Shown here: positions 36,653 to 54,479 of the stretch, piece after piece
Layout: the number at the start of each line of letters is the position of its first letter
Position numbering within the stretch: position 1 is the first letter of the stretch
Assembly: GCF_004834005.1 (NCBI RefSeq)
Contig: NZ_STFF01000001.1
Location: forward strand, 124,001 to 188,000
Length of the DNA stretch: 64,000 nucleotides
Direction: 5' to 3'
From: Niastella caeni
GTDB taxonomy: Bacteria > Bacteroidota > Bacteroidia > Chitinophagales > Chitinophagaceae
Program-made: the position numbers and the translations under genes
Notes under the pieces: model-generated
Seen by the model: the letters and a program-made list of their open reading frames with translations, nothing else
Database searches by the model: none
What the model was told of the DNA's origin: nothing

Positions 36653-37480
36653 TTAAGCTGTATTCCGCTTCCTCCATCCCCACTTCAAAAACACGGGCAG
36701 CGCTTTGGCCCAGGAACGGATATCATGTTTGCCATCGGGCAATTGCAGGTAATGCATGTTCTTTCCCTCAACCCAGCCTTTGGCCAGCAGTTCCCGCATC
36801 ACGTCGATGGTATCGTCGATAGAATCGATCACGCCATTGTTATTGCGATCTTCGGTTTCATCGAGCTCGCCGCATTGAAAGAAGAATTTCAAACCAGGTT
36901 GATATTTCCCCTGCCTTATCTGCCGGTGCATCAGCCGGTCAGTGGCTTCGTTAAAATCTTTATCTTTTCTGTCTTTCGACCGCCACCACAAGGCCCCGGA
37001 AAATACCCCCACTTTAGAAAATAGATCCGGATGGTTCCACACCAGGTCAAGCGCACTTAAGCCACCCAATGAAAAACCGGCAAAGGCCATTTCATTAAAC
37101 ACCAGGTGACTATAACGCTCATGAATATATGGTAAAAGCTCTTCCAGGATAAACTGTCGGTACAAACCTGCTTTGGCGCCACGGCCTTTAAAATCGGGCC
37201 CACTGGTCATGCCATATTCCTGCAATCTATCTTCACCACTATGAATTCCAACACACAGCAAAGGCGTAATGGTTTCGGTTTGATGCAGGTATGCGATCAT
37301 TTTATCAAAGCCCATGGCTTCAATATCCTGACCATCATTGAACAATAATAAACCGACTGGACTATTATCTCCGAGGTTACTGGCGGGACCGTAGAAATTT
37401 ATCGTTATGGTACGTTGGAGCGCTTCAGATGGCAATTCTACCGTTTCTACCATTATTCCGGTACTAACTTCTGTTTGCAT
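36653..37480 (-). CDS. Esterase D/enterochelin-esterase-like alpha/beta hydrolase
   Basis: A cytoplasmic hydrolase of 275 residues with no signal peptide. The nucleophile elbow is AGFSLGGLSALDLVW. The family approach region (VGLLLFNDGQDIEAMGFDKM) precedes it, and the catalytic His is probably in LPDGKHDIRSWAKALP. An unusual insertion, GELDETEDRNNNGVIDSID, looks like a calcium-binding D-x-N-x-x-G turn. It is divergent from an ATP-grasp ligase gene with 139 bp between starts. In Bacteroidota such esterases accompany ATP-grasp and GCS2-type ligases, so it may hydrolyse an ester or peptide intermediate of that pathway. The ATG at 37480 is preferred to an upstream TTG. Confidence 0.82.
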   Translation of the reverse strand: MQTEVSTGIMVETVELPSEALQRTITINFYGPASNLGDNSPVGLLLFNDGQDIEAMGFDKMIAYLHQTETITPLLCVGIHSGEDRLQEYGMTSGPDFKGRGAKAGLYRQFILEELLPYIHERYSHLVFNEMAFAGFSLGGLSALDLVWNHPDLFSKVGVFSGALWWRSKDRKDKDFNEATDRLMHRQIRQGKYQPGLKFFFQCGELDETEDRNNNGVIDSIDDTIDVMRELLAKGWVEGKNMHYLQLPDGKHDIRSWAKALPVFLKWGWRKRNTA

Positions 37481-37619
37481 ACCTGTCAAAATTAGTAATT
37501 CTGCTCAAGCAGTAACGTTAAAAGTACGGGAATTGTCCGATTTGTTTATTCACCAACCTTCCGATAAATTTGGTAAGAAAGTTTGTGAGAAAAGATTTGA
37601 ATCACCCAAATGCGCTTGT

Positions 37620-38618
37620 ATGAAAAAAATTGGCATTCTTTTCGGCCGCGAAAGATCATTCCCCATGGCTTTTATTGAGCGCGTCAACAGCAGGAATACA
37701 CCCGGGATTACCGCAGAACCTGTTCATATAGACAAAGTAATACAAGGCGCCGCAGTTGAATATGATGTGATCATCGACCGCATTTCACAGGATGTTCCTT
37801 TTTACCGTTCCTTTCTTAAAAATGCAGCCATCTGCGGTACAGCCGTCATCAACAATCCCTTTTGGTGGAGTGCCGATGAAAAGTTCTTCAACAACTGCCT
37901 CGCCACAAAGATCGGCGTGCCGGTGCCTAAAACAGTGATCCTTCCTTCGTACGACCTGCCGGCTGATACCAGCAATGAATCATATGCCAACCTGGCCTAT
38001 CCATTAGATTGGGAAAAGATCTTTGGGTACGTAGGCTTTCCGGCTTATATGAAACCCTTTGCCGGGGGCGGTTGGAAAAATGTATACAAACTTCATGATA
38101 AAGAAGAATTCTTTCATATTCATAAAGAAACCGGTCAACTGGTGATGTTGCTGCAGGAAGAAATTGTTTTTGAACAATATTACCGGTGTTATTGTATTGG
38201 CGGAAAATATGTGCACATAATGCCATACGAACCGCGTAATCCGCATCACCTGCGTTATAAATGTGATTTTACGCCCTCACCCGATCTCTTTCACCAGATG
38301 GAAGAAATTGTCATACGCATCAATCAATTCCTGGGGTACGATTTTAATACGGTTGAACTCGCCATTCGCGATGGCGTTCCTTATGCTATTGATTTCTGTA
38401 ACCCGGCTCCTGATGCAGACCGCCCCAGTGTAGGCGATGATAATTTTGAATGGGTGGTTGAAACAGCAGCAACTTACGCTATTGAAAGAGCGCTTACCCA
38501 TCAACCCGGGCACGATAATCTTACCTGGGGAGAATTTACCAAACGAAGCGTGAATCGTGTACCATTAGGGGAAATGAAGAATGAGAAATTAGAAACAGAT
38601 ACTTTTGTGGAAAGTTAA
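37620..38618 (+). CDS. ATP-grasp ligase (D-Ala-D-Ala ligase/RimK-like)
   Basis: A 332-residue enzyme expected to join a carboxylate to an amine through an acyl-phosphate. The N-terminus MKKIGILFGRERSF resembles the first domain of D-Ala ligases. ATP-binding features: K145 in AYMKPFAGGGWKNV with the glycine-rich loop, E180-E181 (LLQEEI), and the magnesium-binding N-x-N-like segment around residue 258 (YAIDFCNPAPDADRPS; E247 in TVELAIRD). The ATG at 37620 begins the family sequence; upstream open codons look non-coding. It is followed after 116 bp by the GCS2-type ligase. The substrate is unknown; peptide-like metabolite synthesis is inferred from context. Confidence 0.85.
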   Translation: MKKIGILFGRERSFPMAFIERVNSRNTPGITAEPVHIDKVIQGAAVEYDVIIDRISQDVPFYRSFLKNAAICGTAVINNPFWWSADEKFFNNCLATKIGVPVPKTVILPSYDLPADTSNESYANLAYPLDWEKIFGYVGFPAYMKPFAGGGWKNVYKLHDKEEFFHIHKETGQLVMLLQEEIVFEQYYRCYCIGGKYVHIMPYEPRNPHHLRYKCDFTPSPDLFHQMEEIVIRINQFLGYDFNTVELAIRDGVPYAIDFCNPAPDADRPSVGDDNFEWVVETAATYAIERALTHQPGHDNLTWGEFTKRSVNRVPLGEMKNEKLETDTFVES

Positions 38619-38734
38619 CAGAGCTTGCCCCGACATGTGGGGGTTCATGAGTTAACAAGTTGACAGGCGAACATAAGAACAAACGAACTAAAACATTAGA
38701 ACTCAAAACAAAGAACTCAGAACTAAGAACTCAG

Positions 38735-39847
38735 ATGGCAAATATAAATTTAACGCATTTTACGCTTGGCATTGAAGAAGAATACATGGTGATTGACCCG
38801 GTTAGCCGTGAATTGAAAAGCCACCAGCAGCGGATTGTAACCGAAGGACAAAAAGTAATTAAAGATAAAGTGAAAGCCGAAATGCACCAGGCTGTGGTGG
38901 AAGTAGGTACTGATGTTTGCCGCAATGTTGATGAAGCCTATAAAGACGTAAGCAACCTGCGACGCACCATTTCACATATTGCCGGTGACCTTGGTTTCTG
39001 GGTAGGCGCGGCAGGTACGCATCCGTTCAGCCACTGGGAAAGCCAGTTAATTACCGACCATGTGCGGTATAAAGAGATCCTTGATGTACTGCAGGATGCT
39101 GCCCGTAGTAACCTTATTTTCGGTTTACATGTGCATGTGGGCATGGAAAGCAGGGAAATGGCCAATCACATTGCCAATTCAACAAGATATTTTTTACCGC
39201 ATATTTATGCGCTCAGTACCAACTCTCCTTTTTGGGAAGGAAGGAATACCGGTTATAAATCATATCGCACGAAAGTGTTCGACAAGTTCCCCCGTACCGG
39301 TATACCCGAAACATTTGACACCATAGAAGACTATGACAATTTTATAAAGCTGCTGGTTAAGACCAACTGCATCGACAACGCCAAAAAAATATGGTGGGAC
39401 CTTCGCGTGCATCCGTTTTACAACACAGTAGAATTCAGGATCTGCGATGTTCCGTTAACCGTACAGGAAACTGTTGCCATAGCGGCTTTATTCCAGGGTG
39501 TTTGCGCTAAAATATATAAGCTGCGCTTACAAAACCTCAACTTCATTCAATACTCACGGGCCCTCATCAACGAAAACAAGTGGCGGGCCAGCCGTTACGG
39601 TATCGATGGGTTACTGATTGATTTTGGAAAGGAAGAAGAGATCAACACCCGCGTACTGATCTACGAACTCCTCGATTTTGTAGATGATGTAGTAGACGAA
39701 CTGGGTAGCCGCCATGCTGTTAATTTTATTACAAAACTGCTTGAAGAAGGCACCGGGGCCGATCGCCAGTTAAAGGTGTTTCAACAAACGAACAGCCTGG
39801 TGCCGGTGGTTGATTACATCCATAGCCAGTTCCTGGCGGGGGTATAG
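38735..39847 (+). CDS. Carboxylate-amine ligase, GCS2/YbdK family
   Basis: A 370-residue member of the glutamate-cysteine ligase 2 (COG2170) family, which forms gamma-amide bonds using ATP. The family features are plain: FTLGIEEEYMVIDP with the metal-binding glutamates, AVVEVGTDVCRNVDEA, LIFGLHVHVGMESREM, and WWDLRVHPFYNTVEFRICD near the C-terminus. The ATG at 38735 is chosen because an earlier in-frame GTG/TTG region is made of intergenic AACTAAGAACTC words. The adjacent ATP-grasp ligase, glutamine amidotransferase and esterase genes suggest a multi-step amidoligase pathway. It is not enough on its own to claim glutathione synthesis. Confidence 0.9.
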   Translation: MANINLTHFTLGIEEEYMVIDPVSRELKSHQQRIVTEGQKVIKDKVKAEMHQAVVEVGTDVCRNVDEAYKDVSNLRRTISHIAGDLGFWVGAAGTHPFSHWESQLITDHVRYKEILDVLQDAARSNLIFGLHVHVGMESREMANHIANSTRYFLPHIYALSTNSPFWEGRNTGYKSYRTKVFDKFPRTGIPETFDTIEDYDNFIKLLVKTNCIDNAKKIWWDLRVHPFYNTVEFRICDVPLTVQETVAIAALFQGVCAKIYKLRLQNLNFIQYSRALINENKWRASRYGIDGLLIDFGKEEEINTRVLIYELLDFVDDVVDELGSRHAVNFITKLLEEGTGADRQLKVFQQTNSLVPVVDYIHSQFLAGV

Positions 39848-40146
39848 GCGTATTTGGTTTGTGGTTTATGGTTTGTGGTTGTTTTATTCGTGACGGCCGC
39901 TTTTCTTTATGACTCTTTACCTTGTTGCCTTTTCTTGCTTGCAGCTTGCAGCTTGAAGCTTGCAGCCTGTATTCTGATATATAAATATTTTCCATAACAT
40001 ATCCAAAGGATCAATTGTCGCTTATTGCACTTATTGTCATTATACGACAATATTTACCCACATTTGTCCGTTTATACGTCCAATCCCGTCCCTTCGCTCG
40101 CCGTAAATTCCCGAAATAAAATATCTTTGGTTAAATCTGTTCCGGT
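39848..40146. repeat. Intergenic region with two word families and an inverted repeat
   Basis: TTTGTGGTTTATGGTTTGTG (39856-39880) belongs to the AACCACAAACC family, and GCTTGCAGCTTGCAGCTTGA (39939-39960) to the GCTTGCAG family. ATTGTCG (40014-40020) and CGACAAT (40045-40051) form a perfect 7-bp inverted repeat with a 24-nt spacer, about 100 bp before the lipoprotein ATG, and could be an operator. There is no coding content. Confidence 0.5.
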
Positions 40147-40686
40147 ATGAAAAAAGTCCTGGTTAATGGCTGGCCTGCCTTGCTATTGCTGTTTTTAGTA
40201 GCGTCCTGTGGTAAAGAAATAAGTTCAGAAGAAGATCTGGGACAATACTATCTCAAATGCAAAATAGGCAACGTAGATAAAACATTTAATTTTTTTGCTT
40301 CAGCCGATAAAGAAGACCTGGGTGGCGGCGCTTCCAGCTATGCCATCATTGGAAAAGCGGTAGCTGATGCATCCAATTTCGAAAGCCTGGCCTTCTCCAT
40401 TCAACTTTCCATTCCTTTTACGCCTGGTACATACACCGTAGCAGATCCCACCACCGATTACTTAATGATTGGTCTTTATAATCCCAACACAACCGATTCT
40501 GAAAAAATATTTGTCAGCCAGGAAAATGAATCGGATCCATTCCAGGTCACTTTTACAGAGATCACCAGCACTACTATAAGCGGTACTTTTAAAGGGAAAC
40601 TGTTTCTCAATAATTCCGCCGATCCTAATGCAACTGCTGATTCTGTTGTTATTTCCAATGGGCAGTTTAAGTTGAAGGTTCAGTAA
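40147..40686 (+). CDS. Hypothetical lipoprotein (179 aa)
   Basis: An exported lipoprotein: KKVLVNGWPALLLLFLVASC with the lipidated Cys at C21, then acidic residues (GKEISSEEDLG). The remaining 150 residues look all-beta (KIGNVDKTFNFFASADKE, FSIQLSIPFTPGTYTVADP, GTFKGKLFLNNSADPNA), a pattern common among Bacteroidota surface or periplasmic lipoproteins of unknown role. I recognise no family with certainty. It is followed after 43 bp by another small exported protein and separates the carboxylate-amine ligase from the ethanolamine genes. Confidence 0.75.
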   Translation: MKKVLVNGWPALLLLFLVASCGKEISSEEDLGQYYLKCKIGNVDKTFNFFASADKEDLGGGASSYAIIGKAVADASNFESLAFSIQLSIPFTPGTYTVADPTTDYLMIGLYNPNTTDSEKIFVSQENESDPFQVTFTEITSTTISGTFKGKLFLNNSADPNATADSVVISNGQFKLKVQ

Positions 40687-40729
40687 ACACAAATACGCCC
40701 CTACTAATCTCCCTAATCTCAAACCGATT

Positions 40730-41143
40730 ATGATGAAACTAATGAAGCTTTGGCTTTTAATAGTATGTAGTTTTATTTCCTTAACCGCATTGTCGCAAAA
40801 AAAAGAGGATATTACCGGCAATTGGAAAGTTATACGAGTGTTACTACCGGCAGAGCTTAAAGGTGACAAACAGGGAATCCAAAAGATGGAAAAAATAATG
40901 CTGCAAACCAGCTTTCATTTCAACAGCGATGGAAGTTGTACAGTAAACTCACCGGAAAAAGAAATGCAATTTAAAAAATGCAAGTGGACCTTTAATAATA
41001 AAGAAAAATCAATCAGTATCAATGGGGAAGTTAATGGTGAAAAAGGATTGCTGATGATAATTATTGTAAGCCTCAAAAACAACAAATGGTACTTTGAATT
41101 GGTTGAAACAACGGTAACACTTGAAGTTCAAAGAACTGGCTAG
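40730..41143 (+). CDS. Small exported lipocalin-like protein (137 aa)
   Basis: Signal peptide (LMKLWLLIVCSFISLTALSQ) followed by EDITGNWKVIRVLLPAELKG, then alternating strands (TSFHFNSDGSCTVNSPEKE, KCKWTFNNKEKSISINGE). The GNWK opening and the 'F...DG...' strand order resemble the lipocalin-like domains widespread in Bacteroidota. The function is unknown. Two ATGs lie close together at the start; the first is given. It converges on eutC across a 133-bp gap containing the palindrome CCTGCCGGCAGG at 41147-41158. Confidence 0.7.
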   Translation: MMKLMKLWLLIVCSFISLTALSQKKEDITGNWKVIRVLLPAELKGDKQGIQKMEKIMLQTSFHFNSDGSCTVNSPEKEMQFKKCKWTFNNKEKSISINGEVNGEKGLLMIIIVSLKNNKWYFELVETTVTLEVQRTG

Positions 41144-41276
41144 TAACCTGCCGGCAGGCAGGTAGCTAGTAGGGGTTCATTCCTTACTCCCCACTTCTGG
41201 CCATCCTCGCATATTTTCTTTCTTTTTCCCACTCGCTCCCGATAGCTATCAGGACTACTCACTACTCGCTGACCCA

Positions 41277-42047
41277 TTAGCACATTAGCGTATTAGCATT
41301 CCCATTATCCTTCAACCCCACACCAGAAAGCTGCAATCGCAGCGATTCACTGATAAGAAAAAACAGCTTTTCCGCAGCAGCCTGATAGTTCAATCCTTCG
41401 GGTCGTATATTGGAGATACAGTTGCGCGACTCATCGGTTAAACCAGGCGTTGGATGAAATGTAAGATAAACCCCTAAGCTATCCGGCGAGCTTAGTCCTG
41501 GCCGCTCCCCGATCAGTACCGCTACCAGCTTTGAGCGCAACAAGTGGCCACATTCATCACCAATGGCAACCCGTCCTTCCTGTACTACACATACAGGAGC
41601 AACAGAGAGCCCTGCCTTCTCAAACAACGGCAATAATAATTTCAATACTGGTATAGTATGATTGTTCATCGCAGTGGCAGATAATCCATCGGCCAGCACA
41701 AGGCATATATCATATCCTGTACTGTTGAACGCCTTCAACCGCGCAATCGCTTTTTCATTCAGCCGTCTGCCGCGATCGGGGTATTGCAGGTATTCACTGC
41801 GGTTGGCAGCCTGGGTATGTAAAACAAAGGCAGCCTGCCGCAATGATCGTAGTTCATTTAACAGTAACTGCTGATCCAGTACAGCATACACCGCATCCCG
41901 GGCTTCTGCATGCGCCAGCCTGAATTTCAGTAGCGCATCTAATGGTTCGGCCGTGCCGGTCCTTCCCAAAGCAATACGGGCAGCAGTGTAAGTTTTTAAC
42001 TCTGCCCAGGGATCGGGTTGTACTATCGTTTTTTGTATATCCTTCAC
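41277..42047 (-). CDS. eutC: Ethanolamine ammonia-lyase small subunit
   Basis: Small subunit of the adenosylcobalamin-dependent lyase that converts ethanolamine to acetaldehyde and ammonia. It has 256 residues. The family sequence is clear: ARIALGRTGTAEPLDALLKF, LRSLRQAAFVLHTQAANRSE YLQYPDRGRRLNEKA (in two blocks), VLADGLSATAMNNHTIPVLK and AVLIGERPGLSSPDSLGVYL. The start is GTG at 42047, immediately abutted upstream by sixteen copies of an 8-bp repeat. EutB lies upstream on the same strand, so the two subunits are presumably co-transcribed through the repeat. No eutA or microcompartment genes are in the window. Confidence 0.93.
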   Translation of the reverse strand: MKDIQKTIVQPDPWAELKTYTAARIALGRTGTAEPLDALLKFRLAHAEARDAVYAVLDQQLLLNELRSLRQAAFVLHTQAANRSEYLQYPDRGRRLNEKAIARLKAFNSTGYDICLVLADGLSATAMNNHTIPVLKLLLPLFEKAGLSVAPVCVVQEGRVAIGDECGHLLRSKLVAVLIGERPGLSSPDSLGVYLTFHPTPGLTDESRNCISNIRPEGLNYQAAAEKLFFLISESLRLQLSGVGLKDNGNANTLMC

Positions 42048-42048
42048 G

Positions 42049-42180
42049 AGTTATTCAGTTATTCAGTTATTCAGTTATTCAGTTATTCAGTTATTCAGTT
42101 ATTCAGTTATTCAGTTATTCAGTTATTCAGTTATTCAGTTATTCAGTTATTCAGTTATTCAGTTATTCAGTTATTCAGTT
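42049..42180. repeat. Tandem ATTCAGTT x16 microsatellite upstream of eutC
   Basis: Positions 42053-42180 are exactly sixteen perfect copies of ATTCAGTT, preceded by a partial AGTT at 42049-42052. On the eutC-coding strand the unit is AACTGAAT, which carries TGA; because 8 is not a multiple of 3, stops fall in all three frames and translation cannot read through. The array starts one base from the eutC GTG. Perfect identity implies recent expansion or active slippage. Confidence 0.95.
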
Positions 42181-42237
42181 AAGCTCACGACTATTTATGA
42201 ACTTAATAACTTACGAACTAAATAACTTATAAACTTA

Positions 42238-43614
42238 CTAGTTGATCAATTGCAATAACCGATGTCTGTCTTCAACAGGAACCACTGCCCCCTCTTCATT
42301 CATGATCCCCTGTTTTATCAGCCATTGCTCAAACTCCGGCGCAGGCCGTAAGCCTAATACTTTACGCACATACAAAGCATCGTGAAAAGAAGTTGACTGA
42401 TAATTCAACATAATATCATCAGCACCAGGTATACCCATAATGTAATTACAACCGGCCACACCTAACAAGGTAAGCAGGTTGTCCATATCGTCCTGGTCGG
42501 CTTCGGCATGATTGGTATAACAAACATCTACGCCCATGGGCAGCCCGAGTAGCTTGCCACAAAAATGATCTTCCAATGCCGCACGAATGATCTGTTTGCC
42601 ATCGAATAAATACTCGGGACCAATAAATCCCACCACCGTATTCACCAGTAAAGGAGAAAATTTTCTGGCTACGGCATATGCCCTTGCTTCGCAGGTTTGC
42701 TGATCAACCCCTTCGTGCGCGTTAGCCGATAATGAGCTTCCCTGCCCGGTTTCAAAATACATCACATTCGAACCCAACGTGCCGCGTTGTAATGTCAACG
42801 CTGCGTCGTATGCTTCCTGCAACAGCGCCAGGTTTATGCCAAAACTTTTATTGGTCTTCTCAGTGCCGCCGATGGATTGAAACACGAGGTCGAGCGGCGC
42901 CTTTTGTTGAATCAGTTGTAATGAAGTGGTAACATGGCACAATACACAACTTTGTGTAGGTATGTTGAATCGCTGAATGATGGCATCGAGCATCTGCAGC
43001 AGCGTTGCTACATGATCGGGAGAATCCGTAGCCGGGTTAATGCCGATCACCGCATCACCGCTGCCATATAATAATCCGTCTACGATACTGGCGGCAATCC
43101 CCTTGGGATCGTCTGTCGGGTGATTAGGTTGCAGTCGAACCGATAACCGTCCCTTTAACCCAAGCGTATTGCGAAAGGTGGTGATCACTTCACATTTTCT
43201 GGCCACGCAGATCAGGTCCTGGTTGCGCATCAGTTTTGAAACAGCCGCAACCATTTCAGGTGTTAAACCCGGCGCTAATTTTTTCAACGTTACCGGGTCG
43301 GCTTCATCACTCAACAACCAGTCGCGAAACTGGCCGGTGGTAAAATGGGCAACCGGCGCAAATGCCTGTTCATTATGTGAATCAATGATCAGCCGGGTAA
43401 CTTCATCCTGTTCATAAGGAATAACAGCTTCCTCCAGGAAATTTTTAAGTGGCACATCTGCCAGCGCCAGTTGCGCCGCCACCCGTTCTTTATAATCCGC
43501 AGCAGCTACGCCAGCCAGCGCATCGCCCGAACGAAACGGACTTGCCTTCGCCAGCAGGGTGGTTAATGTATCAAAATTATAAGTATGTTGTTGTATGGTA
43601 TGGCGGTAAGGCAT
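42238..43614 (-). CDS. eutB: Ethanolamine ammonia-lyase heavy chain
   Basis: Large, substrate- and cobalamin-binding subunit of ethanolamine ammonia-lyase. The 458-residue length is normal. Typical segments are LRNQDLICVARKCEVITTFR-like (MRNQDLICVARKCEV), RLQPNHPTDDPKGIAASIVD, GLLYGSGDAVIGINPATDS, GSSLSANAHEGVDQQTCEAR and LPMGVDVCYTNHAEADQDDM. The ATG at 43614 gives the family N-terminus; a longer frame adds ten unrelated residues. It is preceded by the permease gene (131 bp gap) and followed by eutC across a 190-bp gap containing the microsatellite. It needs imported or made cobalamin; no such genes are seen nearby. Confidence 0.95.
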   Translation of the reverse strand: MPYRHTIQQHTYNFDTLTTLLAKASPFRSGDALAGVAAADYKERVAAQLALADVPLKNFLEEAVIPYEQDEVTRLIIDSHNEQAFAPVAHFTTGQFRDWLLSDEADPVTLKKLAPGLTPEMVAAVSKLMRNQDLICVARKCEVITTFRNTLGLKGRLSVRLQPNHPTDDPKGIAASIVDGLLYGSGDAVIGINPATDSPDHVATLLQMLDAIIQRFNIPTQSCVLCHVTTSLQLIQQKAPLDLVFQSIGGTEKTNKSFGINLALLQEAYDAALTLQRGTLGSNVMYFETGQGSSLSANAHEGVDQQTCEARAYAVARKFSPLLVNTVVGFIGPEYLFDGKQIIRAALEDHFCGKLLGLPMGVDVCYTNHAEADQDDMDNLLTLLGVAGCNYIMGIPGADDIMLNYQSTSFHDALYVRKVLGLRPAPEFEQWLIKQGIMNEEGAVVPVEDRHRLLQLIN

Positions 43615-43745
43615 AAAATTCAAATAACAAGAACCAAATGACAAATTCCAAAAGACGAAAAAAGCTGTAAGCCATAAGTAGAAAGCCGAGAGCCAAAGGC
43701 CGTCGCGGCTTTAATATCTTCGAACTATGAACTAAGAACTAAAAA
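43615..43745. repeat. Spacer between permease and eutB with word repeats
   Basis: This spacer contains AAGCTGTAAGCCATAAGTAG and GAAAGCCGAGAGCCAAAGGC (variant GCTTGCAG-type words), then GAACTATGAACTAAGAACTA and GGAACTATGAACT (AACTAAGAACT family). No terminator is evident, so permease, eutB and eutC may form one transcript. Confidence 0.5.
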
Positions 43746-45044
43746 TTAGGAACTATGAACTGGTTTCCGAAAGGCCATAAACAATATCACCAACAATCCT
43801 CCCAGCCCAAAGAAAATCGTACTCAACCAGGGATTATACCAGATAATAGCAATCAAACAAACTACTGCCAGTATCAGGGCCGTTAAGGGAAACCATGGAT
43901 ACAAAGGTACTTTGAAAGGGCGTTCCATGTTGGGTTGTTTACGCCGCAACACCAGTAAACTCATCATACTGATGATATACATAACCACAGCACCCAGGGC
44001 GCTTAAAGTAATTACCTCGCCGGTATTGCCGATGCATAAAGCAACGATGCCAATACCACCGCCGGCAATCAACGCAATATGAGGGGTCTGAAACCGGGTA
44101 TTTACCCTGGCCAGCACTTCGGGCAAATAACCGCTTCTGGCCATGGCATATAACTGCCTGGAGTAACTGATAATGATGCCATGGAACGAAGCAACCAGGC
44201 CAAACAAACCAATTCCGGCGAAGATCTTTGTCCAGCTATTTTGTTTTCCCAATACAATGCTGATGGCCTCCGGCAACGGATAATCAATGCGGGCCAGGTT
44301 ATGCCAGTTGGTAACACCACCCGTAAAGAACATTACACCCAGTGCCAGCAATACAAGGGTTACAATACCATAAATATAACCGCGGGGAATGGTGCGCTGG
44401 GGATCTTTCACTTCTTCGGCCACCATGGCCACGCCTTCTATCGCCAGGTAAAACCAGATGGCGAAAGGCAATGCGGCAAATACGCCGCTCCAGCCAAAAG
44501 GCATTGGGTCCTGTTTAAAATTTTCCCAGCGAAAGGCAGGCGCAACAATACCCATGAACAATAACAGTTCGGCAACGGCCAGCAACGTAACAATAAGGGA
44601 GAACATGGCCGATTCCCTGATGCCCAAAAAATTTATTAAAGTGAACACTACGTAACACCCAATGGCCACCGGCAACACCGGCAAGGCGGGGTGCAAAAAG
44701 TGCACATAACTACCAAGGGCAAAAGCAACGGCCGGCGGCGCCAGTAAAAATTCTACCAGGGTAGCATAACCGGCAATCAATCCTCCTAGCGGACCGAATG
44801 CTTTATATGCATAAGCAAAGGGCCCGCCGGCCTGCGGTATGGCGGCCGTTAACTCCGTAAAGCTGAAAATAAACGTAATGTAAAAGATGGTGACGAGCAG
44901 CGTTGCTATCAGAAAGCCGCCTGTTCCGGCTACGTCCCAGCCCAGGTTCCAGCCAAAATATTCTCCTGAGATCACCAATCCAACCGCCAGCGCCCACAGG
45001 TGCACGGGTTTTAATACTTTTTTTAAAGAAGGGTTGCTATGCAT
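43746..45044 (-). CDS. eat: Ethanolamine permease (APC superfamily)
   Basis: A 432-residue inner-membrane amino acid/amine transporter with about 12 spans. The N-terminus (KPVHLWALAVGLVISGEYFG WNLGWDVAGTGGF in two blocks) is characteristic of ethanolamine permeases, and EVKDPQRTIPRGYIYGIVTL is the conserved APC block after span 6. Direct linkage to eutB and eutC supports ethanolamine as the substrate. The ATG at 45044 is preceded by a 292-bp region shared with the divergent SGNH hydrolase gene, which includes a 12-bp palindrome. Confidence 0.9.
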   Translation of the reverse strand: MHSNPSLKKVLKPVHLWALAVGLVISGEYFGWNLGWDVAGTGGFLIATLLVTIFYITFIFSFTELTAAIPQAGGPFAYAYKAFGPLGGLIAGYATLVEFLLAPPAVAFALGSYVHFLHPALPVLPVAIGCYVVFTLINFLGIRESAMFSLIVTLLAVAELLLFMGIVAPAFRWENFKQDPMPFGWSGVFAALPFAIWFYLAIEGVAMVAEEVKDPQRTIPRGYIYGIVTLVLLALGVMFFTGGVTNWHNLARIDYPLPEAISIVLGKQNSWTKIFAGIGLFGLVASFHGIIISYSRQLYAMARSGYLPEVLARVNTRFQTPHIALIAGGGIGIVALCIGNTGEVITLSALGAVVMYIISMMSLLVLRRKQPNMERPFKVPLYPWFPLTALILAVVCLIAIIWYNPWLSTIFFGLGGLLVILFMAFRKPVHSS

Positions 45045-45210
45045 GCAATTTGTTTTTAATAATAGCTTTTGCTGATCGTTCAGGTCCTGTAAAGCAACCG
45101 TTGCATCTTGAATGAAACATAAATTAAGACAAACTAATTAAAAGTAAGCAAAGAGGTGAAAAAGAATTTATCATGAACGGGATCAGACAGTTATGTACTT
45201 GATCCACAAA

Positions 45211-45222
45211 GCCTGTACAGGC
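45211..45222. promoter_or_regulatory. Perfect 12-bp palindrome, candidate operator
   Basis: GCCTGTACAGGC reads the same on both strands. It lies between the divergent ethanolamine permease (start 45044) and the SGNH hydrolase (start 45337), where a regulator site would be expected. The surrounding region is AT-rich, so a GC-rich perfect palindrome stands out. No regulator gene is adjacent; function inferred only from position. Confidence 0.35.
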
Positions 45223-45336
45223 ATTTAATGTGCAAAAAACGCCAACCAGACTCAATAGATATAAAAATTTGTGATTAGATTCGCTGCCGTTTACAGAGTC
45301 ATATTTTGCACACTTTTACTTCTAAACTTATTACAA

Positions 45337-46002
45337 ATGAGATTGCTTTTGTACATTTCCTTTATCGCCATTACATTAGTAAGCTTTACCGGTATGCAGC
45401 AAAAACAACGTATTGTTTTCTTTGGTGATTCCATTACACAAGCCGGCGTATCGCCTAACGGCTATATAACCGTGTTAGGCAACCTGGTAGAGCAAAAAGG
45501 ATTAAAGGACCAATACGAATTAGTAGGCGCCGGTATCAGCGGCAATAAAGTGTATGATCTTTATTTAAGAATGGAAGATGATGTACTGGCAAAAAATCCC
45601 AATACCGTAGTGATCTGGGTTGGCGTAAATGACGTTTGGCATAAAAGAAATGGTACTGGTACCGATGCGCCCAAGTTTGAACAATTCTACAATGCCATTA
45701 TCAAAAAACTACAGGCAAAAAATATTAAGGTTGTAATGTGCACACCTGCCGCCATTGGTGAAAAAACAGATTTCTCCAATGAACTGGATGGCGACCTGAA
45801 TAAATATGCCAATATCATTCGCAGCATTGCAGTAAAAAACAATTGTCCGCTGGTTGACCTTCGCAAAGGTTTCCTGGCCTATAACCTGGCCAATAATGCA
45901 GAAAATAAAGACAGAGGGATCCTGACTTCAGACGGCGTTCACCTGAATGAGAAAGGCAACCTGTTTGTTGCCGAAGAAATGATGAAGGTGCTGGTGAAGT
46001 AA
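45337..46002 (+). CDS. SGNH/GDSL-type hydrolase, exported
   Basis: A secreted esterase-like enzyme of 221 residues. A signal peptide (RLLLYISFIAITLVSFTG) precedes VFFGDSITQAG (block I with the Ser nucleophile), GAGISGNKVYDLYLR (block II Gly), WVGVNDVWHKRNGTG (block III Asn) and SDGVHLNEKGNLFVAE (block V with Asp and His). The ATG at 45337 starts the signal peptide; upstream open codons are not plausible. Possible substrates are acyl or acetyl esters of lipids or glycans. It sits between the ethanolamine block and the amidotransferase gene, 105 bp from the latter, with no obvious shared function. Confidence 0.88.
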   Translation: MRLLLYISFIAITLVSFTGMQQKQRIVFFGDSITQAGVSPNGYITVLGNLVEQKGLKDQYELVGAGISGNKVYDLYLRMEDDVLAKNPNTVVIWVGVNDVWHKRNGTGTDAPKFEQFYNAIIKKLQAKNIKVVMCTPAAIGEKTDFSNELDGDLNKYANIIRSIAVKNNCPLVDLRKGFLAYNLANNAENKDRGILTSDGVHLNEKGNLFVAEEMMKVLVK

Positions 46003-46107
46003 TGAACGGTATGCCCTAACAATTTCCCTGTTTATTTGTTATTTATTGATAAGGCTGCAGACAATGACATCGTATAAAATGCGTTATGTTTGCAGCTTTA
46101 CTTTACT

Positions 46108-46956
46108 ATGACTAAACCAACTACCATACGGGTAGCCCTTCTTGATCTGTATGAAGGGCAGGTAAATGAGGGAATGCGATGCATAAGGGACATTCTGCAC
46201 CAATATAGTAAAGCCCATGGTTTAAACCTGGTATGCAAAGAATTTGACGTACGGCTTAAATGCCAGTTGCCTGATTTACATTACGATATATATATATCTT
46301 CCGGTGGGCCCGGCTCACCGGTCGTCAGTGGCCACGAATGGGAACGCCTGTATTTTGAGTGGATCTATGAACTGGAGCAATATAACAAAAGCGCCCACGG
46401 ACCTAAAAAGCATGTGTATTTCATTTGTCATTCCTTTCAACTCGCTGTGCAATATTTCAGGGTGGCCAAAGTAACCAAACGTAAGTCCACCGCTTTTGGC
46501 GTTTTTCCCGTGCATATGTTGCCTGCCGGAAAAGAAGAACCGGTTTTTGCCGGATTGCAAGATCCCTTTTATGCAGTAGACAGCCGCAATTACCAGGTTA
46601 TAGAACCCGATCACCAACAACTCAATCGCACAGGTGTTGCTATCCTGGCTATAGAAAAGGAACGGCCGCACGTGCCGCTTGAGCGGGCCATTATGGGTTT
46701 CCGGTTCAATGACTATATGGTGGGCACTCAGTTTCATCCCGAAGCTGATGCGCCCGGCATGAGCCGTTACCTGCAACGCGACGATAAAAAACAAATGGTC
46801 ATCAAGAACCATGGGATTGAAAAATGGCAATCCATGATCGAACAACTCAATGACCCTGATAAAATTTTATATACGTACTCGCATATTCTGCCTAACTTCC
46901 TGAATATGGCGATTGAAGCGTCACGAAAAGTAACAAGCTTGTATCGTGAAACGTGA
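46108..46956 (+). CDS. Class I glutamine amidotransferase
   Basis: A 282-residue stand-alone GATase-1 domain protein. The oxyanion-region turn is SSGGPGSP (64-71). The nucleophile Cys is C107 in YFICHSFQLAVQYF, where the usual G-x-C-x-G is replaced by I-C-H-S-F. The His and Glu partners are H210 and E212 (GTQFHPEADAPG). The triad is complete, so it should release ammonia from glutamine or cleave a gamma-glutamyl amide. Its closest functional neighbours are the ATP-grasp-like gene 171 bp downstream and, 6 kb upstream, the GCS2 and ATP-grasp ligases, which suggests a shared pathway. Confidence 0.87.
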   Translation: MTKPTTIRVALLDLYEGQVNEGMRCIRDILHQYSKAHGLNLVCKEFDVRLKCQLPDLHYDIYISSGGPGSPVVSGHEWERLYFEWIYELEQYNKSAHGPKKHVYFICHSFQLAVQYFRVAKVTKRKSTAFGVFPVHMLPAGKEEPVFAGLQDPFYAVDSRNYQVIEPDHQQLNRTGVAILAIEKERPHVPLERAIMGFRFNDYMVGTQFHPEADAPGMSRYLQRDDKKQMVIKNHGIEKWQSMIEQLNDPDKILYTYSHILPNFLNMAIEASRKVTSLYRET

Positions 46957-46965
46957 ATGTCGCTG

Positions 46966-47090
46966 TTACCGGTTACCGGTTCCCAGTAACCGGGCAAAAA
47001 ATTTGAGACCCCGACGATCTGCAGAGTGATCGGGATTCAAGTCCTGGTAACCGGAACCCGGTAACTGGTAACTGTTAACAGGCATCCTGA
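46966..47090. repeat. GGTAACCGG-type intergenic words
   Basis: The gap between the amidotransferase and the ATP-grasp-like gene is mostly copies of GTTACCGGTTACCGGTTCCC and GGTAACCGGAACCCGGTAAC, with TGGTAACTG variants. Copies in opposite orientation flank a CGACGATCTGCAGAGTGATC core, so the region could fold into a long hairpin in the transcript between these two co-directional genes. Confidence 0.6.
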
Positions 47091-47127
47091 AACTTCTTTG
47101 TATCTTCAGTTTCAAAACAATAGTAGC

Positions 47128-48321
47128 ATGGTTCCCGGTTTACGGAAAGCATTTAATGAATCTTTTACCGATCAACAATACGAAGCATTTTCAAAAGACC
47201 TTAACAATAAATATCCCGGCGCCATTGAATTCAGATTATCAGAAACACCGGTATTTGCCGATAAACAGTTTGCCCAACAAATGATAGATGCCTGCGAGCA
47301 CATCATTGATGTGATCACCGATCCGGCATTTAAACAAATTACCGAGGCATCCATCCCAAAAAACGAACGCGTTCCCAATGAAAGCAACCGGTGTGAAATG
47401 ATCGCTTTTGATTTTGGCGTTTGTCTCAATGAGCAGCAGGAGCCTGAACCGCGGTTAATTGAAATGCAGGGCTTCCCTTCCCTGTTTGGTTTCCAGGTAT
47501 ATTATCCCGATCTGTACAGAAAATATTTTTCCATCCCGGATAATTACAGCCAGTACCTGAACGGCCATACCCGTGATACGTACCTGCAGTTGTTAAAAGA
47601 AGTAATTATCGGAGATGAGCCGGTTGAGCATACCATTCTGCTGGAAATAAAACCACACGAGCAAAAAACGCGGATCGATTTTTATTGCACCCAGGAATAC
47701 CTGGGCATTCAACCTGTTTGCATCACCGAACTGATACAGGAAGGAAAAGACCTGTACTATATGCGCGCCGGTAAAAAAACACCCGTAAAGCGCATTTACA
47801 ACCGCGTTATATTCGATGAACTGCAGGCAAAGAAAGATACATTGGGAAAATATACTGATATTACGCAGGAGCTGAACGTGCAATGGGTGCCGCATCCCAA
47901 TTGGTTTTACCGCATCAGCAAGTACACGTTGCCATTCCTGCATCACCCGTACGTGCCTGCTACTTATTTCCTGAACGAAATAAAACAATTACCGGCCAAC
48001 CTGGAGAATTATGTATTAAAACCGCTGTTCTCATTTGCTGGCCAGGGCGTGCTGATTGATGTAACGCCGGAAGACATTGAAAAAATATCCGACCCGCACA
48101 ACTGGATCTTACAACGGAAAGTGCAATATGCCAGTATCATTGAAACGCCCGACGAACCGGCCAAAGCAGAGATCCGGATTATGTATGTCTGGAAAAACGG
48201 CTGGGACCGCCCTCAACCGGTTATCAACCTGGCCCGGTTAAGCAAAGGCAAAATGATCGGGGTAAATTTTAATAAAAATAAACAATGGGTTGGCGGCAGC
48301 GTTTGTTTTATTGAACGATAA
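47128..48321 (+). CDS. ATP-grasp-like ligase, uncharacterised
   Basis: A 397-residue cytoplasmic protein. The C-terminal half has an ATP-grasp look: ENYVLKPLFSFAGQGVLID (Lys plus Gly-rich loop, about 285-305), NWILQRKVQYASII (where the QE-type pair is expected) and AEIRIMYVWKNGWDRPQPVI with a late NLARLSKGKMIGVNFNKNK. The N-terminal half (SNRCEMIAFDFGVCLNEQQ, EPRLIEMQGFPSLFGFQVYY) is distinctive. It is followed by a cupin gene after only 23 bp. It is probably a second ligase of the amidoligase pathway; the fold is a moderate-confidence call and the substrate is unknown. Confidence 0.75.
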   Translation: MVPGLRKAFNESFTDQQYEAFSKDLNNKYPGAIEFRLSETPVFADKQFAQQMIDACEHIIDVITDPAFKQITEASIPKNERVPNESNRCEMIAFDFGVCLNEQQEPEPRLIEMQGFPSLFGFQVYYPDLYRKYFSIPDNYSQYLNGHTRDTYLQLLKEVIIGDEPVEHTILLEIKPHEQKTRIDFYCTQEYLGIQPVCITELIQEGKDLYYMRAGKKTPVKRIYNRVIFDELQAKKDTLGKYTDITQELNVQWVPHPNWFYRISKYTLPFLHHPYVPATYFLNEIKQLPANLENYVLKPLFSFAGQGVLIDVTPEDIEKISDPHNWILQRKVQYASIIETPDEPAKAEIRIMYVWKNGWDRPQPVINLARLSKGKMIGVNFNKNKQWVGGSVCFIER

Positions 48322-48344
48322 TCATTCTATTTAAAAACATATTT

Positions 48345-48662
48345 ATGCAACACCTCGATGACGTAAAAGGCAAAGAGATCGTACCTGGATTATACGGCCG
48401 GTTTGTACATGGCGAAAATATAACGCTGTCATTCGTAGATATTAAACCAGGATCACAATTGCCCGAGCACAGCCATCCGCATGAACAAATAACCTATATC
48501 CTCGAAGGAGAACTGGAAATGGTTATTGGGGGTGAAAAAATGTTGCTCATGCCCGGCATGGTGCATGTTATTCCGGGAAATGTACCGCACAGCGCCTACG
48601 CCCGTACAGCAGTGAAGGTTTTAGATGCCTTTTCACCGGTAAGAGAGGATTACAGAATTTAA
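48345..48662 (+). CDS. Single-domain cupin protein
   Basis: A small cytoplasmic cupin of 105 residues. The metal-binding pattern is intact: PEHSHPHEQITYILEGELEM (H-x-H, then E) and the second-motif His in HVIPGNVPHSAY. Small cupins act as dioxygenases, isomerases or sensors; this one cannot be assigned. The 23-bp gap after the ATP-grasp-like gene suggests co-transcription. Its stop lies at the edge of a nested inverted repeat that separates it from the convergent efflux operon. Confidence 0.85.
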   Translation: MQHLDDVKGKEIVPGLYGRFVHGENITLSFVDIKPGSQLPEHSHPHEQITYILEGELEMVIGGEKMLLMPGMVHVIPGNVPHSAYARTAVKVLDAFSPVREDYRI

Positions 48663-48775: not shown

Positions 48776-49912
48776 TTATTCTTCCTCTTCAGTATTCTTC
48801 ATCTTACCCAGTACTGCATACGCATTTTTAGTCACCACCTGCATGCCTGATAACTCAGTGGAGGTTGAACTTACGGCCACCCGCCCATTTTCACGCAGGC
48901 CCGTCTCTACATTCACCAGTTGAAAATGGTTCTTACCTGTTACCTGCACAATATATTGCTGGTTGCTATAGCGCACTACGGCATCTTCCGGCACGGTAAG
49001 CGACGGTACATTTTCAATATGGATGGATGCATTCAAAAACATGCCGGGTAACAGGTTTTTGGGCCTCGTTTTAAAATGGCAATGAATGATGCCGCTACGG
49101 TTGGCATCTACGTTGCGGGTAACCAGTATCACTTCACAATCGTATTCTTTACCAGGCTCATCAACAAAAGATACTTTCACCAACTGGTCTACCTTTATTT
49201 TAGGCATGTCTTTTTCAAAAACGGTAAGCGCGGCATGAATGTCATCGGGATTAATGAGTTCAAACAATACATCGGTAGCGTTTACAAACTTGCCAATATT
49301 TACATTCACTTTCGATACAAAGCCATTAATGGGCGAATACATGGGCACACTGCGGGAGATGTTATTCTCCGTTAACGAACCCGGATTAATATTTATCAGC
49401 CGCAGTTTTTCCGCCAATCCTTTTACCTGCACTTTCTGTGCGGCAAAATCAGCCTGCACCTGTTGAAAGGTCTTGGCGGAGCTTACCTGCTGTTCGCTCA
49501 ATTCCTTTTGCCGGTCATATTCCTGTTGCAAAAAATGTAAACGGGCCTGTGCCATCAGGTAATCCTGCTGCAGTTGAACCAGTCCCTGGTCTTCAATGAG
49601 GCCTATTACCTGTCCTTTGTTCACATGCATCCCAGGCAGCAGCGTCGTATTTTTAAGATAACCACCCAGGGGAAAGCTTACCGATACAATATTCTGCGGC
49701 GGCACATCCACTACCCCATTCACTTTTAATACATCGTTCAGGTTTTGCGATTGCACGTTTCCGGTTTCAATACCGGCATTTTTAACCTGTGCATCAGTTA
49801 AGGTCGCCGCATTCTCTTCGGCTGGCGTTTCCGCTTCAATCGCTTTTTCTGAAGGGGAAGAGCAGGATGCTGATAAAAACAGAACAGCTATATATATAAA
49901 CAGTTTCTTCAT
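48776..49912 (-). CDS. Efflux RND periplasmic adaptor lipoprotein (CusB/HlyD type)
   Basis: Membrane-fusion subunit of a three-part metal efflux pump, 378 residues. Lipoprotein signal with lipidated C17 (FIYIAVLFLSASC). It then has a beta-barrel/lipoyl part (GYLKNTTLLPGMHVNKGQVI and PMYSPINGFVSKVNVNIGKF), a helical hairpin between them (about 120-185; LQQDYLMAQARLHFLQQEYD), and a C-terminal barrel (ALTVFEKDMPKIKVDQLVKV). No Met-rich N-terminal extension is evident, so copper specificity is not shown. Its ATG lies 7 bp after the RND gene stop, so they form an operon. Confidence 0.9.
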   Translation of the reverse strand: MKKLFIYIAVLFLSASCSSPSEKAIEAETPAEENAATLTDAQVKNAGIETGNVQSQNLNDVLKVNGVVDVPPQNIVSVSFPLGGYLKNTTLLPGMHVNKGQVIGLIEDQGLVQLQQDYLMAQARLHFLQQEYDRQKELSEQQVSSAKTFQQVQADFAAQKVQVKGLAEKLRLININPGSLTENNISRSVPMYSPINGFVSKVNVNIGKFVNATDVLFELINPDDIHAALTVFEKDMPKIKVDQLVKVSFVDEPGKEYDCEVILVTRNVDANRSGIIHCHFKTRPKNLLPGMFLNASIHIENVPSLTVPEDAVVRYSNQQYIVQVTGKNHFQLVNVETGLRENGRVAVSSTSTELSGMQVVTKNAYAVLGKMKNTEEEE

Positions 49913-49919
49913 TTCGTGA

Positions 49920-52900
49920 TCATTTTCCGGTTAAGTATTCCAGTTCTATAATGGTATTGTTCAGAGCATGCACCGCTTCCAGGTAACTCAATTCAATACG
50001 CACGGCATTGTTCATTTGCAACGTCCACTCCACATAACTAACATCACCTTTTTCAAAACCCAGGCGGGCATTACGGGTGATCAGCGCTGCTTGCTGCAAG
50101 CCGCTCGTTTCATAATACCGAACCTGTTCAGCGTATTTCTTATGGGCCTCGTTCAATTGCTGCCATTGATTTACCAGGTATTGACTGGTAGCGGCCACTT
50201 CCATACGGGCCGTTTCTTCCTGAACCTGGTCTGCTTTTATACGTGACTTCACCGCTTTATTAAATAAAGGCAATGCAACAGATAACTGGTAAATATGAAA
50301 GCGATCTCCTGCCCCATAGTATTGCTGATCTATGCCATCTTTTGTCTGGTACCCGATGATGGATTGGTTACTATAGCCAACTGTAAATCCGGGGGTAAGC
50401 CTTGCCTTGTCTATATTGGTTTGCGCCGCGTGTACTTTTACCTGTTGTTGTTGTGCCTGCACGGCGGGGTGACTGGTAATGGCCGTGGTATCTGTTGTCC
50501 ATTCATGTTTTTTTTGCAAGGCCTGGTATTCTGGTAACAGGTTATCGCGGGTATTCAGTAACCACTGCAGTTGTTGCTGTTCAATACGCAGATCAGCTTT
50601 TACCTGTTCCTGTTGCAGCTTCAATTGTTGTATCTGGGCTTCGGCATTGCTTTTTTCCAGCATAGTGCTTTCGCCCGTCTTTAACCGCAAGGTGGCGGCG
50701 TTCAGGAAACGGCTATAAATAGAATCAAGCCGCAATAGCAGTTGTTGCCGTTCCAGCAGATCAACCATGTTATAAAAAACGGTCTTTACAGCTTTATGCA
50801 ACTCCTGTTGTTTTAACGCTACCTGTTTTGTTACCGCCTGCTCCTGTGCCTGGTACAGTTCTTTTTGCCGCCGGTATACGACCGGCAGTTCAAATGATTG
50901 ATTAATATAAAAACGGGTATCATTTTGAAAACTGTTTACGTTGCCATACTCTGCACCCACCTGCGTTCGTGGTAGTTCGGTGGTAGCGTTTTGCAATTGC
51001 CGCCAATAGCCAACGCCCGATTTGCTGGCTTGTAACGACAAATTATTGGAATTGGCTTGTTGTAACATTTGTTCCAGTGGCATTTTACGGGCAGCAGGTG
51101 TTTGCGAAAAAGCCGGTTGACACAACCCCAGCAAAATAATTATTCCAGCTACTTTGGTTGTACCCTTTATTGAAGGCATGCGCTTTTCGAACCACATATA
51201 CAACACCGGTAATACAACCAGGGTAAGAAAAGTTGCGGTGATCAATCCGCCAATAACAACCGTAGCCAGTGGTCGTTGCACTTCGGCGCCGGGCCCATGG
51301 CTTAAGGCCATTGGTAAAAAACCAAGTGAGGCTACTGACGCGGTCATCAAAACCGGGCGCAGCCGTACACGTGTTCCTTCCATAATAATTTGTTTAATAT
51401 CGTGTATACCCTGATGTTTTAAACGAATGAATTCAGCAATCAATACAATGCCGTTCAATACGGCTACGCCAAACAGGGCAATAAAACCAATGCCTGCCGA
51501 AATGCTGAATGGCATGCCCCGCATCCATAAGAACAGAATACCGCCAATAGCAGATAAGGGAATAGCGGAGAAAATCAGCAACCCGTACCTCACCTTACCA
51601 AATGCGAAATACAACATTACCAGTATCAGCAATAGGGCTACCGGTACGGCAATAGACAACCGTGCCTGTGCTTCTGTTAAATTCTGGAACTGGCCGCCAT
51701 AATCGATGTAATACCCCGCTGGCAGATGCACTTGCTGCTTTATCTTTTTATCCAGTTCTTCAACAATGCTTTCAACATCCCTGCCCTGCACATTGAACCC
51801 CACAATGATCCGCCGTTTGGCATCTTCGCGCTGTATTTGATTAGGTCCTTCCTTTATGGCTACGGCAGCTACCTGGCTCAACGGTATCTGCGCGCCTTTG
51901 GGCGTAGGAATCAACAAATTCTGTACATCGGTTACATCCTGGCGTTGGTTATCCTCCAACCGCACAACCAGGTCAAACCGTCGTTCACCTTCATACACCA
52001 GGCCGGCGCTTTGCCCCGCAAAAGCGGTATTCACGACCCGGTTAATAGCTGAAATATTCAACCCGTAATGCGCAATAGCCGTTCTGTTGTAACTGACCAG
52101 TATTTGTGGTGTGCCGGTCACTGTTTCTACATACAGATCAGTTGCGCCTTTAACGCCATTTATTATAGAACCCAGTTTATTGGCGTATTGCGACAGTGTA
52201 TCCAGGTCTTCGCCAAAGATCTTGCACACTACATCCTGCTTGGCCCCGCTGATCAACTCATTAAACCGCATTTGCACCGGGTACTGAAAACCGAACGTGG
52301 CATCGGGAATATCCTGCAAGGCTACCCGCATTTTTTCCGCCAGTTCATCAAAAGTGCGGGCGCTGGTCCACTCCCTTTTGTCTTTCAGTATTATCATCAA
52401 GTCGCTGGCCTCAATGGGCATAGGGTCGGTAGGTATTTCACTACTGCCGTTCTTACCTACTACTTTTTGCACTTCGGGAAAACGGCTCTTTAAAATATGG
52501 GCGGCCCTGGTTAATGTGCTCACCGATGTATGAATGTTGCTGCCCGTCAATATCCGCGTCTCTACGGCAAAATCGCCCTCTTCCAGCTCAGGAATAAATT
52601 CTCCGCCCAGTTTGGTAAAAATAAACAGACTGGCAGCCAGGAACAGTACACAGCCGCCAATAATTGTTTTAGGAAAGCGAAGCATTTGTACAAGCGCACG
52701 CTGATATGCTTTTTCCAGCCACGCCATCATGCGGTCGCTGATACTTTTTTTGTGCGATAACTTTTTGCTTAGGAACAGGGATGTCATCATCGGCACGTAT
52801 GTGAACGACAGCAGGAAAGCCCCCAGTAAAGCAAAGGTTACCGTTTGCGCCATAGGCCGGAACATTTTTCCTTCAATGCCCTGTAAAGAATAAATAGGCA

Positions 52901-54290: not shown

Positions 54291-54479
54291 GAAATGCTTT
54301 TTGTACAAAGTGCATGCATGCTATAAGCAACATGCATTGCATACGGTATATACCTGTATACAATCATGCATCGCCTAAGTATGCACTTTGCCTGATTGGG
54401 GACCAATACGAAATAAACATAGGGTGATGCTGATTCAACAACACTCTACTTCGTTCAATAAATTAAAACAGCTATAGTT
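54291..54479. promoter_or_regulatory. Leader/promoter of the efflux operon with inverted repeats
   Basis: CAAAGTGCAT (54307-54316) and ATGCACTTTG (54391-54400) form a perfect 10-bp inverted repeat spaced by 74 bp. Inside lie further symmetric words: ATGCATGC, CATGCATTGCATAC, GTATATAC and CCTGTATACA. This is either a set of operator half-sites for a metal-responsive regulator or an RNA structure in the leader. No metalloregulator gene (MerR, ArsR, CueR type) lies next to it. Confidence 0.45.

Follow-up and report, generated by a model that had tools for sequence, protein, structure and literature searches.

Within a 64,000-nucleotide window of the Niastella caeni genome (8.1 Mb in 17 contigs; the window, i.e. 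the whole stretch of DNA analysed, comprises bases 124001–188000 of contig 1), four core genes encode a RimK-like ATP-grasp ligase (ATPg1), a YbdK-type carboxylate-amine ligase (GCS2), a stand-alone protein with a class I glutamine amidotransferase fold (GATase), and a second, predicted ATP-grasp ligase (ATPg2). We propose, tentatively and with a probability of about 45%, that these genes constitute one conserved, often contiguous set, whose products would make a small glutathione-like γ-glutamyl peptide or pseudopeptide and trim it again. A glutathione-like product is proposed because the pairing of a GCS-type ligase with a ligase of predicted glutathione-synthetase fold follows the logic of glutathione synthesis; what is new is the fold predicted for ATPg2 and the observation that the set is inherited in blocks.

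Families and folds of the core proteins

All six genes that a first-pass annotation of the window had placed in a cluster (the core four, an esterase, EST, and a small cupin) were found as open reading frames (ORFs), with families assigned by profile matches. GCS2 matches PF04107 over its full length (E 2.4e-59; 201.5 bits, cut-off 21) and PRK13515 with 515 bits (cut-off 371), and residues 11–350 match the YbdK structure 1r8g (E 9.1e-48); judged by PF04107 and its similarity to YbdK, it is a member of the YbdK/GCS2 carboxylate-amine ligases. ATPg1, for which 34 sequences were aligned, has a match to TIGR00768 (E 3.2e-8) that at 33.3 bits lies below the cut-off of 143.4 for RimK α-L-glutamate ligases, and it also scores below the cut-off for the R2K clade of ATP-grasp proteins (PF18299; 15.5 bits, cut-off 26.2).

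ATPg2 has no Pfam match above cut-off (PF03738, GSP_synth: 12.7 versus 29.3 bits, E 0.074), and two of its relatives give no Pfam match whatever at E 0.01; a profile search of PDB sequences returned YgiC as sole, non-significant, match (E 0.083). The predicted structure of ATPg2 aligns over its whole length with the glutathione/glutathionylspermidine synthetase superfamily, with YgiC, GspS and human glutathione synthetase all within two Z units of one another and sequence identity to solved relatives only about 8–15%; such matches between predicted models and known folds say nothing on function. Asp95 and Glu112 are invariant in 34/34 aligned sequences, but position 93 varies and Gln114 stands in place of Asn; with positions mapped by eye to the L171 protein, the R-x-D and E-x-N acyl-phosphate motifs of Cp1B and the GSP_synth proteins are not fully conserved.

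The GATase belongs to the class I GATase superfamily by its PF00117 score (32.5 bits, cut-off 22.8), its modelled fold (pLDDT 94.6) and its catalytic triad. The triad C107-H210-E212, earlier described as complete, is indeed so, with all three residues invariant in the 28 aligned sequences. Class I GATases usually carry a glycine two residues after the nucleophile; at this position the protein has a serine (S109), likewise invariant in 28/28.

Joint inheritance and linkage

We scored the four genes in evenly drawn samples of 117 Chitinophagaceae genomes (the family sample) and 247 Bacteroidota genomes (the phylum sample), calling absence with a single query protein per gene at E 0.001; co-occurrence counts treat related genomes as if independent. 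In the family sample ATPg1 was found in 82 genomes, GCS2 in 85, GATase in 86 and ATPg2 in 85, with all four genes in 75 genomes, none in 28 and a partial set in 14; second copies or fragments in six genomes (G067, G075, G112, G028, G072, G059) were left out. The corresponding numbers for the phylum sample are 86 (ATPg1), 79 (GCS2), 62 (GATase; 59 kept) and 73 (ATPg2), after removal of weak GATase matches in G163, G325 and G170 (E 5e-5 to 5e-4), weak second ATPg1 matches in G148, G334 and G237, and weak second GCS2 matches in G183 and G236. An ATPg2 fragment of 34 residues in G043 was scored as present, and one of two ATPg2 fragments in G179 was used for linkage.

Across the phylum sample, 41 genomes have all four genes, 152 have none and 95 have at least one; all three ligases occur together in 65, and 58 of the 59 genomes bearing GATase also carry ATPg1. 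Smaller combinations include ATPg1 with GATase (eight genomes), ATPg1, GCS2 and GATase (five), GCS2, GATase and ATPg2 (one), other pairs (three) and single genes (nine). The singletons are probably in part paralogues, to judge from sequence identities of 31–34% for ATPg1 (G014, G200) and 32–39% for GCS2 (six genomes).

Inside taxa the set tends to be gained or lost as a block. Read by eye, family f16 has eight genomes with four genes and eight with none, and family f5 has six with four genes, one with three and nineteen with none (one of the nineteen, G170, retains a single weak match with internal stops); genomes with and without the set also coexist in genera g108, g114, g134 and g154. ATPg1, GCS2 and ATPg2 are kept together in G156 and G172 despite distances of 484 kb and 1.68 Mb between GCS2 and ATPg2.

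Physical linkage was considered next to co-occurrence. Outside Chitinophagaceae, 62 genomes carry both GCS2 and ATPg2; the two are no more than 2.5 kb apart in 39 of these, and in the remaining 23 they are either on separate contigs (20) or widely spaced on a single contig (3). Within the family the two genes are on the same contig in 34/83 genomes and within 10 kb in 24/83. Gene order was read from 80 fetched loci (L062–L141), many of which were hand-picked (L062–L081 mostly for linkage), so that locus counts describe an uneven sample; neighbouring ORFs were called mechanically by a greedy choice of the longest, skipping those below 80 aa. ATPg1, GCS2, GATase and ATPg2 follow one another uninterrupted in 12/80 loci (with ATPg2 on the opposite strand in L071). 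Among loci that carry both members of a pair, ATPg1 and GCS2 are adjacent in this order on the same strand in 38/40; the same is true of GATase and ATPg2 in 30/32, and of GCS2 and GATase in 8/21 family and 7/7 phylum loci. Gaps between core genes are mostly short.

These linkage and adjacency counts indicate that many genomes outside the family have the compact form and that in Chitinophagaceae it is often opened at the GCS2/GATase junction. The conserved linkage on which the first-pass annotation had staked its cluster, between the genes at 37620–39847 and those at 46108–48662, was recovered in the survey of the 117 and 247 genomes, and a chance neighbourhood is rejected on linkage together with co-occurrence. 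Its description of a split cluster is supported in that both halves belong to one conserved set; the split itself reflects insertion at this locus, many relatives having the genes side by side. Genes found at the opened junction in Chitinophagaceae encode an amidohydrolase, an amidase, an α/β hydrolase lipoprotein or a GDSL hydrolase; in the window, ethanolamine genes are found there as well. In a genome of the same genus (G071, L062), 2.5 kb separate GCS2 from GATase, and the gap holds relatives of the GDSL hydrolase, EutC and ORF 40147; of the ethanolamine genes, only the EutC relative is seen there. Lipoprotein-like amidohydrolases (10/40) and amidases (5/40) recur at the junction in family loci, L073 and L078 among them, and a role in processing or salvaging the product is conceivable.

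Proposed pathway and rival explanations

The best reading of the set is still a pathway that forms a peptide or amide and includes an enzyme to trim it, a reading that gains support from the fold predicted for ATPg2. From the gene identities, triad, fold models, co-occurrence and linkage we infer the substrates, product and order of steps as follows. GCS2 would couple an amine or amino acid to glutamate, probably at the side-chain carboxylate of the latter; ATPg2 would phosphorylate the resulting carboxylate and couple a second amine or amino acid, and the RimK-like ATPg1 may attach one further residue. The Cys-His-Glu triad of the GATase would cleave a γ-glutamyl bond, in product turnover or in removal of a protecting γ-glutamyl group, and the neighbouring α/β hydrolases may strip an ester or thioester.

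The set resembles glutathione biosynthesis in uniting a GCS-type ligase with a ligase of predicted eukaryotic-type glutathione-synthetase fold, but differs in that GCS2 is YbdK-type, ATPg2 is remote in sequence from its solved relatives (about 8–15% identity), the set further includes a RimK-like ligase and a GATase-fold protein, and the bacillithiol synthase BshC is also encoded. Unlike GspS and YgiC/YjfC, ATPg2 scores below the PF03738 cut-off, lacks the R-x-D arginine and shows E-x-Q where those have E-x-N; a further difference is that hydrolysis falls to a protein of its own, the GATase-fold enzyme. Arabidopsis γ-glutamyl peptidase 1 (GGP1) was compared with the GATase by fold alone (14% identity), and glutaminases and MetA fit equally well. 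Iyer and colleagues (2008; PMC2588565, section 6) predicted that glutathione or a related peptide is made by a family of ligases of GCS2 size whose genes adjoin one for a GATase-like thiol peptidase. That system is similar in that a ligase of the GCS2 superfamily adjoins a GATase-like protein and is read as a maker of glutathione-like peptides; it differs in its ligase family and its occurrence in proteobacteria and firmicutes, and that section makes no mention of the two ATP-grasp ligases (PMC2588565).

Several observations weigh against the proposed pathway. Seven of the 14 partial sets in the family sample lack ATPg1 alone, GATase is missing beside the three ligases in 24/247 phylum genomes, and four f2 genomes carry ATPg1, GATase and ATPg2 without GCS2. 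ATPg2 is also absent from phylum genomes with a sister version of the set, consisting of ATPg1, a CP_ATPgrasp_2-like protein and GATase. The CP_ATPgrasp_2-like protein was first met beside ATPg1 in some phylum genomes, and a search gave 29 loci, mostly from Rhodothermia and Balneolia, with relatives of ATPg1 in 27/29, of GATase in 24/29 and of c11, a second esterase-like protein (PF00756 above cut-off), in 21/29, several of these loci being contig ends. In the sister operon (L142–L170; L111, L112, L117–L119) this protein stands in place of GCS2 and ATPg2, and a profile comparison did not tie it to ATPg2 (hhalign probability 8.4, E 0.004). ATPg2 may differ in chemistry from its GSP_synth relatives, since their R-x-D arginine is missing from it and E-x-N is replaced by E-x-Q; the GATase model fits homoserine acyltransferases and glutaminases equally well.

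The role of the GATase is addressed by loci in which it is replaced. An M29-type metallopeptidase occupies its slot between GCS2 and ATPg2 in two loci (L106, 8296–9324; L124, 7348–8367), which favours a hydrolytic role for GATase. However, a relative of at least 60% identity was found in only 3/26 genomes lacking GATase (unlinked in G318), a further point against the proposal: GATase is often simply absent, and trimming by it would not be obligatory. No relative at this identity occurs in 34 GATase-bearing or six cluster-free genomes, and weak matches (26–32% identity) occur in 12 GATase-bearing genomes; the idea that the peptidase generally replaces GATase is weakened. Sets without GATase and sets without GCS2 indicate that the system is modular, which leaves room for glutamine-dependent amidation.

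In that alternative, which we consider rather unlikely, the GATase-fold protein is a glutaminase supplying ammonia to an ATP-grasp ligase, such that a carboxylate is amidated as in two-subunit carbamoyl-phosphate synthetase and an amide is made with no trimming. The 24 genomes holding the three ligases without GATase argue against it, although free ammonia could serve there, as do the two loci with a metallopeptidase substitute and the invariant serine where class I GATases usually have glycine.

Amine conjugation and release, an unlikely alternative, would resemble the Puu putrescine pathway, in which an amine is γ-glutamylated and the conjugate then hydrolysed: GCS2 would γ-glutamylate a polyamine or ethanolamine, GATase would hydrolyse the conjugate, and ATPg2 would act as a glutathionylspermidine synthetase. 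The GspS/YgiC-like fold modelled for ATPg2 and the ethanolamine genes within the cluster here and in L092 are consistent with this, but ethanolamine genes accompany the cluster in just 2/40 family loci, and no recurrent polyamine gene was noticed among the clustered neighbours, not all of which are annotated.

We think it quite improbable that the ligases attach amino acids or short peptides to proteins as tags, in the manner of RimK on ribosomal protein S6 or of PafA, which attaches Pup, for the GATase-fold enzyme to detach. ATPg1 is RimK-like, and the section cited above traces PafA to the GCS2 superfamily (PMC2588565); against this, three distinct ligases and two kinds of esterase resemble a small-molecule pathway more, and no recurrent small tag gene appears among the clustered neighbours, where ORFs below 80 aa were uncalled and a short tag could escape. 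Two independent pairs (ATPg1–GCS2 and GATase–ATPg2) lacking a common function are very improbable: each pair stays together and the halves are within 10 kb in only 24/83 family genomes, but outside the family GCS2 and ATPg2 are closely linked (39/62) and all four genes appear and vanish jointly.

The bacillithiol synthase BshC is encoded in 242/247 genomes, the host included, which also counts against the proposal; the cluster is therefore dispensable as a basic thiol supply, and replacement of the basic thiol by its product is ruled out. An extended form of the proposal, doubtful at present, is that many Bacteroidota possess a second glutathione-class cofactor besides bacillithiol, a γ-glutamyl peptide made by YbdK-type, glutathione-synthetase-fold and RimK-like ligases, with its own GATase-fold peptidase for recycling and its own esterases for unloading acyl groups.

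Gene layout, companion genes and significance

The features are collected in Table 1. Starts were placed where relatives begin to align, giving those listed as likely for ATPg1 and GATase, and likewise for GCS2 (rather than a TTG at 38660) and ATPg2 (rather than a TTG at 47098). The closest named relatives of ATPg2 are in Niastella vici (86% identity) and Longitalea (84–85%).

Table 1. Positions of the core genes and their neighbours in the window
Feature	Position	Strand	Assignment
EST	36653–37489	minus	PF00756 esterase (α/β hydrolase), E 5.7e-24; divergent from ATPg1
ATPg1	37620–38618	plus	RimK-like ATP-grasp ligase; TIGR00768 E 3.2e-8, under cut-off
GCS2	38726–39847	plus	YbdK-type carboxylate-amine ligase; PF04107 and PRK13515 above cut-off
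Intervening genes	40147–46002		Two small ORFs, EutC, EutB, ethanolamine permease, GDSL hydrolase; outside the proposed pathway
GATase	46108–46956	plus	Stand-alone class I GATase-fold protein; PF00117 above cut-off; triad C107-H210-E212
ATPg2	47128–48321	plus	Predicted glutathione-synthetase/glutathionylspermidine-synthetase-fold ATP-grasp ligase
Small cupin	48345–48662	plus	PF07883, E 2.6e-16; 23 bases past ATPg2

Esterases recur as companions. In 23/27 family ATPg1 loci a relative of EST is encoded on the strand opposite ATPg1, no more than 2.5 kb away, and c11 is present in 7/27; one or the other is near ATPg1 in 27/27 family and 13/30 phylum loci. Two loci (L108, L141) have a Fes-like esterase, an extra ATP-grasp protein and an aminopeptidase-like protein beside the operon (M17 by Pfam in L108, by resemblance in L141). 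The cupin, previously counted as a cluster member, is present but is a minor companion (near ATPg2 in 6/29 family and 0/21 phylum loci), and the γ-glutamyltransferase at 18281, once suggested as a distant enzyme that could process a related product, is not supported in such a role, a relative being near the cluster in 1/40 family loci (L086). In that genome (G004), the enzyme is 67% identical to the one at 18281–19993 of the window and lies one ORF from the cluster esterase.

The ethanolamine ammonia-lyase and permease genes lie inside the set in the window (41277–45044) and in G029 (L092); as they occur in only 2/40 family loci, they were rejected as the main story. In the window the minus strand carries EutC, EutB and the permease. 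An 8-base unit, AGTTATTC, is repeated perfectly in tandem (16.6 copies, 42049–42181) between eutB and eutC, directly preceding the listed start of EutC; changes in repeat length could affect EutC. Downstream of the cupin, a membrane-fusion protein and an RND efflux pump are encoded on the minus strand (48776–54308), and clustered relatives of the pump and the fusion protein occur in 11/40 and 10/40 family loci, respectively.

No description of the four-gene set was recognised in searches of open-licence papers, a scope that does not take in a 2009 amidoligase survey which may list it. The joint gain and loss of the genes within taxa, with at least one present in 95/247 genomes, suggests that the product is probably used under some conditions, and the ligases are of glutathione-making kinds although nearly all these genomes encode bacillithiol synthase as well. 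Compact four-gene operons in relatives ease testing, and the identity of the product would assign functions to three proteins: the ATPg2 family, for which there is no Pfam model, a ligase of YbdK type, and a GATase-fold enzyme that stands alone.

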